Both the position numbers and the translations under genes were made by a program. From Aldrovandia affinis (lineage: Eukaryota > Chordata > Actinopteri > Notacanthiformes > Halosauridae), in the NCBI GenBank assembly GCA_029706075.1, contig JAINUG010000165.1, forward strand, positions 1,933,258-1,997,257: a DNA stretch of 64,000 nucleotides, given 5' to 3'. The notes beneath the pieces are model-generated. The model had not been told where the DNA came from. It did not search any database and worked only from the letters and a program-made list of their open reading frames with translations. Shown here one piece after another: positions 11,321-62,300 of the stretch. Numbering within the stretch: position 1 is the first letter of the stretch; every line of letters starts with the position of its first letter.

Positions 11321-14300
11321 CTGAAACAGGAGCAAACACAAAGAAGAGTTGGTGGAGAGTGGGGCTTGAGATCCAAGCAGTTACTTTATTTTCAGCTCAT
11401 TGCAAATTACTGCTACTGCTCTAAGAGCAACTGACCCAGTAAGATCAGTATATGTGGCCCGAAGGGGAGTTAAACCCACAACCTAAGCGTTGCCAACTAA
11501 GCCACACAGATCCACGCTCTACCTACTGAGCCACACAGATCCACACAGATCCATGCTCTACATACTGAGCCACACAGAACCACACAGATCCATGCTCTAC
11601 CTACTGAGACACACAGAACCACACAGATCTATGCTCTGCCTACTGAGCCACACAGAACCACAAAGATCCACGCTCTACCTACTGAGCCACACAGAACCAC
11701 GCAAATCTATGCTCTGCCTACTGAGCCACACAGATCCACGCTCTACCTACTGAGCTACACAGAACCAGTGCTTCTCATAAACAGTACATTTGAAGCCCAG
11801 AGTGACTCAGATAAACAGGGTGCTGGCTCGGCCTCTGGGGAAGCTCTCCCTGGTTGGTGAGGTAGGCGCGCGTGTGGAGCGGTCGCTGGGCGGACTCACT
11901 CACCCCCTCCTGTCTCTTGGTGAGCTGCCGGTTTACGGTCTGGAGCAGCTGCTGGAGTTCCCTCACCGTCTGGTTCAGTCCCGCCGTCATCTTCTCCTTC
12001 CTGTCCGTCTCCTCCTGAGAGAGAGAGAGAGAGAGAGAGAGAGAGAGAGAGAGAGAGAGAGAGAGAGAGAGAGAGAGAGAGGGGGAGAGAGAGACAGAGA
12101 GAGAGAGAGAGAAAGAGAGAGACACAGAGACAGAGAGAGAGAGAGAGAGAGAGAGAGAGAGAGAGAGAGAGAGAGAGAGAGAGGGAGAAACAGAGAGAGA
12201 GAGAGAGAGAGGGAGAAACAGAGACAGAGAGAGAGAGAGAGAGACAGACAGACAGACAGACAGAGAGAGAGAGAGAGAGAGACAGACACAGAGAGAGAGA
12301 GAGAGAGAGAGAGAGAGAGAGAGAGAGAGAGAGACAGAGAGAGAGAGGGAGACAGAGAGAGAAAGGGAGAGAGACAGAGAGAGAGAGAGAGAGGAGGGAG
12401 AAACAGAGACAGAGAGAGAGAGAGAGAGAGACAGAGAGAGAGAGAGAGAGAGAGAGAGAGAGAGAGAGAGAGAGAGAGAGAGAGAGAGAGAGAGAGACAG
12501 AAAGAGAGACACGCAGAGCTCATTAATGAGGGAGAGACACTGGGGAGAAAACCTGGGTCATTCGCGCTCACACTCACACGGATGCACGCACCACACACAC
12601 AGCAGCCAAACCAGCTCCTGAAAGAACCCCTCTGCCAGACATCCAGCCCTGCTCCCCTGTGCTCTGTAAGTCAATATGACATGACCTTCAACCAGAAATA
12701 CTGTGACCCCGTGACCCCTGCACTTTCCTTCACTATGACCTCCCATATTTGTCTTGGCACAGACCTCCCAACCCCCATCGCTCTCGAAGAGACCCTCCCA
12801 AGTGCATACACACACACACACACACACACACACACACACGTGCGCGCACACACACACACACACACACAGACACACACACACGCGCACACACACACACACA
12901 CACACACACACACACACACACACACACACACACACACACACACACACTCACCCTCTGGGTTGCGATGGTGCTGTTCTCTATCAGGTCCGCCTGGCCCGTC
13001 TCCTTCAGGATCTCGGCCTGGATCAGGTCCAGGGACTCCTGAGCCTAAGAGAGAGAGAGAGGGAGGGTCACACACTCAATCACACACACCGCCGCACCCT
13101 CCTCCCCAAACCCCCCCACACCCTCGTCCCCCTCCACACAGGGAACATCGCCCCCCCCTCCTCACCTTGTACAGATCACCGGCCACCTTCTGCCTCTCGC
13201 TCTCCTCCGTCTCCAACTTGGACAGGGTCTCTGTCAGCTGGGTCTTCAGCTGGAACACAGAACACACGGATCAGCCGGCTAACTCCGCCCACTACCACTC
13301 GGGTCAGCCCGCTAACTCCGCCCACTACCACACGGGCCAGCCCGCTAACTCCGCCCACTACCACTCGGGTCAGCCCGCTAACTCCGCCCACTACCACACG
13401 GGCCAGTCCGCTAACTCCGCCCACTACCACTCGGATCAGCCCGCTAACTCCGCCCACTACCACACGGGCCAGCCCGCTAACTCCGCCCACTACCACTCGG
13501 ATCAGCCGGCTAACTCCGCCCACTACCACTCGGATCAGCCGGCTAACTCCGCCCACTACCACTCGGATCAGTCCGCTAACTCCGCCCACTACCACTCGGA
13601 TCAGTCCGCTAACTCCGCCCACTACCACTCGGATCAGCCGGCTAACTCCGCCCACTACCACTCGGATCAGTCCGCTAACTCCGCCCACTACCACTCGGAT
13701 CAGCCCACTAACTCCGCCCACTACCACTCGGGTCAGCCGGCTAACTCCGCCCACTACCACTCGGGCCAGCCCATGAACTCCGCCCACTACCACCCGGGCC
13801 AGTCCGCTAACTCCGCCCACTACCACCCGGGCCAGTCCGCTAACTCCGCCCACTACCACTCGGGTCAGCCGGCTAACTCCGCCCACTACCACTCGGATCA
13901 GTCCGCTAACTCCGCCCACTACCACTCGGATCAGTCCGCTAACTCCGCCCACTACCACTCGGATCAGTCCGCTAACTCCGCCCACTACCACTCGGATCAG
14001 TCCGCTAACTCCGCCCACTACCACACGGATCAGCCGGCTAACTCCGCCCACTACCACTCGGATCAGTCCGCTAACTCCGCCCACTACCACTCGGATCAGC
14101 TGGCTAACTCCGCCCACTACCACTCGGATCAGTCCGCTAACTCCGCCCACTACCACTCGGATCAGTCCGCTAACTCCGCCCACTACCACTCGGATCAGTC
14201 CGCTAACTCCGCCCACTACCACTCGGATCAGCCCACTAACTCCGCCCACTACCACTCGGATCAGCCCACTAACTCCGCCCACTACCACTCGGGCCAGCCC

Positions 14301-59300: not shown

Positions 59301-62300
59301 CCTGTGCCAGGCGTCGAGAGCGGAGGGGCTCTTCTCCCTGAGCACGGCCGCCACGCTCACGGCCTCCTCCTCAGACAGGGCGAGGCTGCGCAGACCCGCC
59401 AGGAAGTCCTTCAGCTTCACCTCCGAGTTCTCAGAGAGAGAGAGATAGAGAGAGAGAGAGGGAGGGAGGGAGGGAGAGAGAGAGGAGAGAGGTGAGAGAG
59501 GAGAGAGAGAAGATGGAGAGAGAGAGAGAGAGTGAATGAGTGATAGAGAGACGGTCACCCTCCTCATGGCGGCACCCGAGTGGAGAGCATCTCTCTCTCT
59601 CTCTACCTTTGTCCGTCTCGTTCTTCAGCTTCTTGCCGCTGGTCTTGGCGGGGGCGTCGTCACCGTGGCCCTTCTGGGGTTCGCTGTCCAGCGGGGGGGC
59701 GGAGACGGACAGCTGGACGAGGGGCTCCTCCAACGGGGCTGCGGGGGGAACACGCACCCCTGAACACTCAGTTACACACGCGCTAGAGCCCCCTGAACAC
59801 TCAGTCACACACGCGCTAGAGCCCACACACGGATACTCACATGGCACGCCTGTACAGTTACCCCTGAACATGCAAACACACGGTCTGAGGGTCAGCCGGT
59901 ACAAGGGCACAGACTGAGGGGAAACTACCGCTCACACCTTACTCTCTTTGCCTTTCACCAACATTTACCAATACACACACACAGACACACACATTGAAAG
60001 GAGTGACATCAAGTCACAGCGCTCTCACTCCTGGCTGCTTAGCCACACACACACGCACACGCACACACACGCACACACACACACGCACACGCACACACAC
60101 ACACGCACACGCACACACACCAAGCCACGACCCCCACACTGAGCTACGCTATGCATCTGGGCTGTCTGGACACACCTGGCTCAGTCTTCTGCTTCTTGGC
60201 GGAGTTCTTCTTCTTGCCACTGGTGGGGGCGGGGGTGGGGGCACCGTCCTGCACCTTGGCGTCTGCGGCCATGGCAACGTCCTTCTTGACTGGCACAGGG
60301 GCCTGGTCCACTTTGGTCTCTTGTGGAGGCTCATCAACTACCACTACAACAACAACAACAACAACATTACATTACATTAGGCACTTATCCAGAGCGACTT
60401 ACAGTTTACATTTCTTTACATACAAACCATTTATACAGCTGGATATTTTACTGAGGCAATTCAGGTTAAGTACCTTTAGCTCAAGGGTACAACGGCAGTG
60501 TCCCACCTGGGAATTTAACCTGCAACCTCTGAGTTACAAGCCCAGCTCCCTAACCATTATACTACACTGCCGCCCAGTACAACGACATGGAGGGAGTCAT
60601 CAGCCAGAACGGTCTTCAGAGACCACCGCTCAAATCGTCTCAATCGTAAACCTCACGCCAGCAAGCGATCGTCACAGATGGGCCAAGGAGCCATGGACGC
60701 GAGACGTCACAATAACCGATAACCACCAGATATTCTTCCTTGGGTGAACATGGGGGGTCTGGGGTTTCAGCCGAATATATCCCAGAGGGGGCGGCTGATA
60801 GCGTAGCGGTCTAACGCACCGTACTTTGGCTGGTCCTGTACGAGTGTGAGCTGCCTATCAGGGACGCGGTTCGAAACCAGTCTGTGCCAGACCGGCCCTG
60901 GCCGTTAGCCCCGATCGGGGGGTGGCGTTTGGCTGTCCGCCCCAGAGGGAGTGGGAAGGGTGAGCGGGCTCGAGTTCGCCGTGAAGCACGTAAGGGAGTC
61001 TCCAGAAAGGAGGTTGGTGAGTTCCATCTCAAAGGAGGCGGATCATCGCCGGCCTCAGAGAGTAGCTTGCCCCGTAGCGATGGGCGGCGAGTTTGTGGGG
61101 GGGAGGGTTAATAGAAATAAATGGAGGGTAAAACTGGCTTCCAAATTGCGTAGAAAAACTGGGGGAAATCTGAAACAAATTCTTTAAAAAATTAAAATAA
61201 AATAAAAATAATATATCCCAGAAGAATGGGGGGGATAGACGCCCACTAATGTCTTACTGCACTGCACCCGGCACCCATCGCCCCACCCAAACCCTCCAGT
61301 GAAGAGAAAGCCCCCTACACCCCATCGGGGAGTCCCGTAACTCAGTGGGTAGAGCGGCACTGGCAATGCCAAGGTTGTGGGTTCGATCCCACGGGACTAC
61401 ATGTCCATCGTTCAGATGGGATGGTAAAAACCGAGGTCCTGACTCTCTGTGGTCATAAAAGATCCCATGGTGCATTTTAGAAAAGAGTAGGGTGTTAACC
61501 CGCTGTCCTGGCCAAATTCCCAACCAAGACAATATATATATATATACATGGAATTCATTAATTGCCTCTCCACTGTGTCTCTGATGTGTGGTGAGTTTGT
61601 ACTGGCGCACTATGGCTGCCGTCATGTTCACCCAGGTGGGTGCTGCACATTGGTGCTGGTTGAGGTTTCTCCTATCATAGTAAAGCGCTTTAGGTTCCTT
61701 GAAAAGTGCTATATAAATCCAATGTTCAATTCAATTCAGTCCTGGCTAATCTGCCTCTAAAAATCCACCGTGCTGCAAACGACCTCCCGCTCCGGCTCAA
61801 TCAACGCCTCTCGTTAAGCGGTCGCGTCGTTAGGCGGTCGCAGCGTTTGGGACATCGTTAATTAACATCCCGGTTAACTGGACAGGGACACAAGAGAACT
61901 GTGTCGCCCGGGAGAGGGATGGGAGGCCACGTGGCCTGGACACAGACCTCCGTCGCACGCAGATCGCTGCTGGCAAGCTTCCAGCGCGCTCCCAGCGTCC
62001 AATCAGGGCACGGCGCCACACGACTCGCCCGTTTGCTGGATTAGTACACGCGAGGGTGCGTCGCTGCCCCGACACAGCACGCCGCATCGAGGTTGTTCAA
62101 TGTCGATTACTTATTAAACCTGTCCCGTTTGTATTCACCCGGACTACTGGAAAGACTAACACTGATTAAGATTTTACACTTAAGATCTTTTGACTCTGGT
62201 CTGAAAGTCAACGCTCCAGAAAACATCCATTTATTATAATTAAGTTTTACGTAATATTCAACAAACAGCGGTTTTTCCGTTCCTGCTGGTGTCCTATTCA

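Follow-up and report, generated by a model that had tools for sequence, protein, structure and literature searches.

Tandem arrays anchored on the splice sites of ktn1 in Aldrovandia affinis

Do tandem repeats fall at random within the introns of a gene, or do splice sites influence where they arise and which of them grow? The question is raised by a window of 64,000 nucleotides (nt) from the fish Aldrovandia affinis (assembly GCA_029706075.1, contig JAINUG010000165.1, positions 1,933,258 to 1,997,257), whose minus strand carries a gene that we take to be ktn1 (kinectin). The initial annotation had proposed that the simple repeats of this gene sit on its splice sites; its gene, strand and exon numbering agree with those of our 35-exon model. 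For ktn1 the non-random anchoring is confirmed. An array lies within 20 nt of 13/34 donors and 8/34 acceptors, where random placement of the arrays inside their own introns gives 2.1 and 2.1. All positional results concern one gene on one haplotype, in genomic sequence. On balance we consider it probable that splice signals are the birthplaces of these arrays and that splicing filters which of them grow.

Tandem arrays at exon edges

Arrays were called by Tandem Repeats Finder, rerun on the sense strand. The 49 arrays are spread over 22 of the 34 introns and make up 23.5% of intron length. Donors with an array number 10/34 within 10 nt and 14/34 within 50 nt; the corresponding counts for acceptors are 6/34 and 11/34. 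Placement inside own introns predicts 5.0 donors and 5.0 acceptors within 50 nt, and placement across all introns 0.9 and 0.9 (20 nt) or 2.1 and 2.1 (50 nt). The 50-nt excess has p values of 0.0005-0.0025 at donors and acceptors under both nulls. Strong arrays only (score at least 100) are found within 20 nt of 9 donors and 8 acceptors (1.7 and 1.7 expected). Dropping the 3 donors and 6 acceptors that are hand-set or weak leaves 12/31 and 5/28 within 20 nt, against 1.7 and 1.4 (p 0.0002 and 0.007). When edges missed by any alignment setting were dropped too, the counts were 10/29 donors and 5/27 acceptors against 1.6 and 1.2 (p 0.0002 and 0.004); this strictest test left out acceptor 16 as well.

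The individual arrays are collected in Table 1. The ten donors credited by the initial annotation with an array 0-50 nt into the intron (exons 6, 7, 8, 10, 13, 18, 19, 22, 26 and 34) all have one, at 0-45 nt, and donors 1, 4, 9 and 20 can be added to that list. CT tracts do end 2-7 nt from acceptors 35, 6, 15 and 4 (493, 549, 141 and 119 nt long), the exon 15 tract being shorter than the 175 nt first given. Arrays had also been placed against acceptors 5, 8 and 33; this is correct for exons 8 and 33 (8 and 13 nt), whereas the exon 5 array is 91 nt off. Further acceptor-side arrays were found at exons 13 (2 nt) and 3 (18 nt). The peak is narrow: among first arrays no more than 200 nt from an edge, 13/18 on the donor side and 8/16 on the acceptor side lie within 20 nt.

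Such an excess could in principle be passive. If mobile elements fill the middles of introns and are selected against near exons, old repeat-bearing sequence would persist beside the exons, and dispersed repeats do take up 21% of intron length here. With these repeats blocked (the blocking covered only families repeated within the window), however, 13 donors and 8 acceptors still have an array within 20 nt against 3.1 and 2.5 expected; at 50 nt the null gives 6.4 donors and 5.3 acceptors (p 0.0005 and 0.0015). A peak only a few nt wide also argues against this edge effect, which we consider improbable.

Boundary copies at donors, AG-free stretches at acceptors

For each donor, a probe joining 15 bases from the exon end to 15 from the intron start was run against at most 2500 nt of its own intron, the probes of the 33 other donors serving as controls. 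The own probe scored above every control in 7/34 introns (exons 1, 4, 6, 8, 10, 19 and 27), where one is expected (p 5e-5), and in six of the seven the top match crosses the exon edge. Exons 6, 8 and 10 are the clear cases, the own probes scoring 55, 53 and 31 where the best controls reach 32, 23 and 23. Their boundaries are present in one, three and nine extra copies respectively, and the cores repeated across copies (CAG/GTAC, GAG/GTAC and AAG/GTGA, the slash standing at the exon edge) include the splice dinucleotides. At exon 8, around 22 nt of the 3′ end followed by the donor are copied at +212 and +355, with a shorter copy at +69. The copies at exon 10 are spaced 42 nt apart; the authentic site reads GTACGC, and the copies read GTACAC and lack the G at +5.

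The first decoy donors of exons 6, 8 and 10 (at +60, +69 and +42) are all in frame and open, a count (3/3) that was noticed post hoc and stands without a null comparison. The four later decoys tried (+212 and +355 at exon 8; +84 and +126 at exon 10) all run into a stop, and the exon 8 pair is frame-shifted as well. A search of the introns for whole-exon copies gave nothing beyond matches of 17-25 nt. We note a degenerate candidate for a second exon 10 at 39885-40064, between the acceptor copy of exon 10 and the upstream 42-bp array. Local alignment gives it a score of 94, where 50 simple shuffles reach 41 at most, but the sequence there is rich in CA; the exon-start probe attains 40 at this place, the top value yet tied with an unrelated place. 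A second, degenerate copy of exon 10 is suggestive only.

Although the initial annotation knew of no named description of such repeats, they have been published. Mirages are minisatellite-like tandem duplications of exon-intron boundaries in the amphioxus Adh3, globin, troponin C and PGBD5 genes (PMC3087553, PMC3902484), and a repeat excess at human splice junctions has also been reported (PMC9065059). The ktn1 arrays at donors 6, 8 and 10 share the defining property of mirages, a tandem unit spanning the exon-intron boundary. The likeness extends to a unit made of exon end and splice signal, to copies bearing usable-looking splice sites, to end units that diverge from a homogenised middle (here at exon 10), and to the occurrence of several such arrays per gene family. 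Unlike the amphioxus examples, those of ktn1 are in a vertebrate kinectin gene, comprise three clear cases that are all donors, sit beside CT and GT microsatellites at acceptors, and are known here at the DNA level.

On the acceptor side, just 34 of the 3019 AGs in the introns serve as acceptors, yet of the six longest runs without AG, five terminate exactly at an acceptor (exons 8, 6, 35, 15 and 13; Table 1). The remaining one, the fourth-longest at 362 nt, is inside intron 5. On the antisense strand, judged by CT-free runs, the maximum is 200 nt. AG-exclusion zones of at least 150 nt are found at 5/34 introns (563, 671, 212, 268 and 504 nt for exons 6, 8, 13, 15 and 35), or at 3/27 when unsure acceptors are left out. 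Exons 6, 13, 15 and 35 have no adenosine from -15 to -150, and within 150 nt none but that of the acceptor AG, which leaves no place there for a conventional adenosine branch point. These stretches imply that the branch points of the four exons are distant or non-adenosine. Counted from 15 nt outward, the first adenosine lies 416, 198, 155 and 506 nt from these exons, against 16-39 nt for the other 30 acceptors.

Exon 8 has CTGAC at -27. Its acceptor array is not a simple dinucleotide repeat and yet has no AG in 664 nt save the acceptor itself; the repeated GCTCTGAC fits a branch-point consensus. At exon 33 a normally placed motif is found at -22, on the exon-side end of an AG-rich array. The arrays within 20 nt of an acceptor are AG-free in 6/8 cases, compared with 2/13 AG-poor arrays at donors (Fisher p 0.018).

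In human, AG-exclusion zones of at least 150 nt occur at 165/67,334 introns, and long zones mark exons with distant branch points (PMC1431707). The ktn1 stretches resemble these in being AG-free for at least 150 nt up to the acceptor. They differ in consisting of tandem arrays and in frequency (5/34 introns), and their likeness is one of sequence; the words microsatellite and repeats do not appear in the text of the human study (PMC1431707). In the open-licence literature we found no publication linking tandem arrays to AG-exclusion zones and none on vertebrate mirages, which is weak evidence of absence.

Repeat type and the origin of the arrays

Arrays within 50 nt of donors comprise 9 mixed or minisatellite, 3 GT, 1 purine and 1 CA; those within 50 nt of acceptors comprise 4 CT, 4 mixed and 3 GT. 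There are six pyrimidine arrays and one purine array, the latter at donor 4. The suggestion that repeat type matches the splice signal thus holds for CT at acceptors and for some donors. As a strict rule it is ruled out by the sense-strand CA arrays that follow donors 9 and 26 and the GT arrays that precede acceptors 8 and 13.

These compositions bear on an account in which no filter is needed: polypyrimidine tracts and GT-rich donors are simple sequence, and slippage would strike them as it does any other. Composition alone is in line with the CT of acceptors, with the GT or GTGAGG of a number of donors and with long CT arrays far from exons. Human splice junctions show an excess of short tandem repeats, H-DNA and G-quadruplex (G4) motifs (PMC9065059). 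The short tandem repeat excess is described as acute, and its authors expected it from pyrimidine tracts (PMC9065059). Against composition alone, our own classes put 9/14 of the arrays within 50 nt of a donor under mixed or minisatellite, the units at exons 6, 8 and 10 duplicate exon sequence that is not simple, and the exon 8 acceptor array shows no AG in 664 nt while being no simple dinucleotide repeat. We regard this account as unlikely.

As in the human study (PMC9065059), the repeats of ktn1 are concentrated at junctions; that study is genome-wide and concerns short repeats, whereas ktn1 is one gene with arrays of up to ~1.2 kb and minisatellites. Sense-strand G4 motifs were observed in the first 100 nt of introns 4, 6, 21 and 33 (4/34, against ~0.8 expected from the intron average), with none on the opposite strand there; G4 enrichment is reported as not seen in zebrafish (PMC9065059).

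The exon 5 array was rejected as splice-seeded, its unit resembling the tRNA-like head of a dispersed element. The arrays at 57387-58569, 53002-53497 and 11502-11772 share a unit of 29/39 bp corresponding to the tRNA-like head of a dispersed element, of which one example is at 29206-29721. This unit is a SINE-like head amplified in tandem.

Dinucleotide tracts at intron ends might instead serve RNA structure, complementary AC and GT tracts bridging the intron and pairing its splice sites. AC/GT bridged introns of fish and lamprey were reportedly described by Lin et al. Introns with paired AC and GT tracts are known in both groups (PMC7404189), and ktn1 resembles them in having dinucleotide repeats at intron ends: 11 of its introns carry GT or CA runs close to one end. 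The complementary pairs are absent, however: 0/34 introns combine GT and AC at opposite ends, and end-to-end pairing is no stronger than between different introns (27 introns, p 0.89). Bridging of this kind is ruled out for ktn1, and we give RNA structure as the explanation of the arrays next to no credence. Pairing between the two flanks of an exon slightly exceeds chance (33 exons, p 0.046, uncorrected for several tests), exons 4, 9 and 26 ranking first. Complementary flank tracts or the strongest pairing (CT/GA or GT/CA) were noted at exons 4 (59226-59551), 26 (21558-22098) and 9 (43788-45191); these exons could be looped out by pairing of their flanks, which is a lead only.

Seeding at splice signals with splicing as the filter would proceed as follows. 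An array would start from a short duplication or from slippage, either within a low-complexity splice signal (the pyrimidine tract, or a GTGAG or GTGTG donor) or across the exon edge. Tandem arrays lengthen by unit addition and so do not creep toward an exon; growth would part the neighbouring DNA and leave the distance to the exon unchanged. An array that abuts an exon therefore most likely arose there. At donors, copies would be harmless where the authentic first site still wins, the copies being weaker, or where the nearest copy keeps the frame, as may apply to exons 6, 8 and 10. At acceptors the array would grow between the branch point and the AG, where only AG-free sequence is harmless, and the CT, GT and exon 8 arrays would thus be free to expand. 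Such growth would leave the branch point up to ~500 nt away. What the sequence shows is the positional excess, the boundary copies and the stretches free of AG or of A; that splice signals seed the arrays, that splicing filters them, that branch points lie far off and that splicing is in any way affected, we infer.

Both proposals of the initial annotation survive in part. That splice motifs seed slippage is favoured by the clustering peak within 20 nt and by the three donor introns with boundary copies, and the exon 5 array is of other origin. That repeats are tolerated where they keep a splice signal agrees with the difference in AG content between acceptor and donor arrays; set against all 40 other arrays (15/40 AG-poor), the 6/8 at acceptors is not significant (p 0.11). 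Several further points weigh against seeding and filtering. The exon 33 acceptor array is full of AG (132 in 1196 nt) and the exon 3 array carries 6 AGs in 68 nt. Boundary copies at acceptors, by the same probe test, number 3/34 (p 0.08, not significant). The copies at donors 1, 4 and 19 are of low complexity, the match at donor 27 does not cross the exon edge, and at donors 7, 13, 18 and 20 the array start excludes the donor itself. Intron 5 holds two long CT arrays whose closest exon is 2.2-3.3 kb away. The basis, finally, is one gene and one haplotype, as DNA alone.

It is possible, though we hold it doubtful, that arrays of this lineage arise systematically at splice sites, that their growth between branch point and AG makes distant-branch-point exons out of ordinary ones, that arrays spanning a donor offer in-frame alternative donors ready for use, and that repeat turnover rewires splicing exon by exon. 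If general, this would provide a direct route from fast-changing repeats to alternative splice sites and distant branch points. It would connect the literatures on lancelet boundary minisatellites and human AG-exclusion zones, and it would allow the limits on repeat growth near exons to be measured, namely freedom from AG at acceptors and, at donors, copies that are weaker or keep the frame.

Gene model and minor features

A kinectin query sequence matches the minus strand of the window over 63.9 to 11.9 kb by tblastn. Spliced alignment gave 37 blocks, which hand curation turned into 35 exons and 34 introns. The alignment used short splice-site scores that see nothing past donor +6 or acceptor -3/+1, and repeat tracts were thus unable to steer exon placement. 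With the splice scores lowered, 30/34 acceptors were recovered exactly, and with the scores removed 28/34; donors were recovered in 29/34 cases either way. The acceptors missed on realignment are 4, 15, 23 and 35 (plus 2 and 20 when scores were removed), and the donors 1, 3, 13, 22 and 27. Weak spots of the model are exon 1, the exon 4 acceptor, exon 15 (positioned by phase and consensus) and donor 27. An additional 3′ exon is expected below 11904.

Table 1. Tandem arrays of ktn1 and the gene model, in window positions; distances run from the array to the exon edge
Feature	Positions	Strand	Splice site	Distance (nt)	Remarks
ktn1 (kinectin), model exons 35 to 1	11904..63925	-			found by tblastn, modelled by spliced alignment to a kinectin query, curated by hand
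CT array	12017..12509	-	acceptor 35	2	AG-free run 502 nt; nearest adenosine 506 nt from exon
GT array	12808..12951	-	donor 34	0
33-bp minisatellite	13263..14458	-	acceptor 33	13	AG-rich (132)
CA-rich array (sense)	21558..21815	-	donor 26	7
GT array	30770..30882	-	donor 22	12
Array	31412..31477	-	donor 20	14
GT-rich array	31692..31922	-	donor 19	0	own-boundary probe above all 33 controls
39-bp minisatellite	34053..34325	-	donor 18	45
CT array	35519..35659	-	acceptor 15	7	AG-free run 266 nt; nearest adenosine 155 nt
43-bp minisatellite	36411..36652	-	donor 13	12
GT array	36758..36947	-	acceptor 13	2	AG-free run 210 nt; nearest adenosine 198 nt
42-bp array	38694..39149	-	donor 10	0	CAG/GTAC at each step, nine further copies
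42-bp unit of exon 10 again, upstream	39363..39884	-	acceptor 10	34
CA array (sense)	43788..43915	-	donor 9	9
Array	47192..47624	-	donor 8	0	copies of exon 8 end and donor at +69, +212, +355
Array	47778..48433	-	acceptor 8	8	GCTCTGAC in 14 copies, plus GT tracts; AG-free run 669 nt
29-bp minisatellite	48745..49227	-	donor 7	10
GTGAGG array	49915..49995	-	donor 6	0	copy of exon 6 end and donor at +60
CT array	50139..50687	-	acceptor 6	2	AG-free run 561 nt; nearest adenosine 416 nt
Purine (GA/GGGA) array	59226..59298	-	donor 4	2
CT array	59433..59551	-	acceptor 4	3	acceptor as modelled
GTGAGG-type array	63085..63129	-	donor 1	0

Two places in the model raise the prospect that exon-side arrays reflect errors in the assembly, either in its consensus or by collapse. 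Exon 1 (63690-63925) holds a membrane-anchor coding stretch followed by a near-copy of the same, with frame breaks on both sides; the near-copy is a genuine local duplication or else an error in the consensus. The exon 4 acceptor (59429-59433) as read is out of frame with exon 3, and to restore the frame would take an intron that ends in TG or a minor sequence error where the CT tract ends. Against an artefact, the model translation runs in a single open frame through exons 4 to 35 and the array units differ among themselves, and we think this explanation very improbable.

Two minor features complete the picture. Another CT-rich array, at 63932-64000, runs up to a presumed acceptor just before the start codon and continues past the window edge. 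Within coding exon 20, a 21-bp tandem repeat at 31560-31605 repeats the residues EALRTEA.

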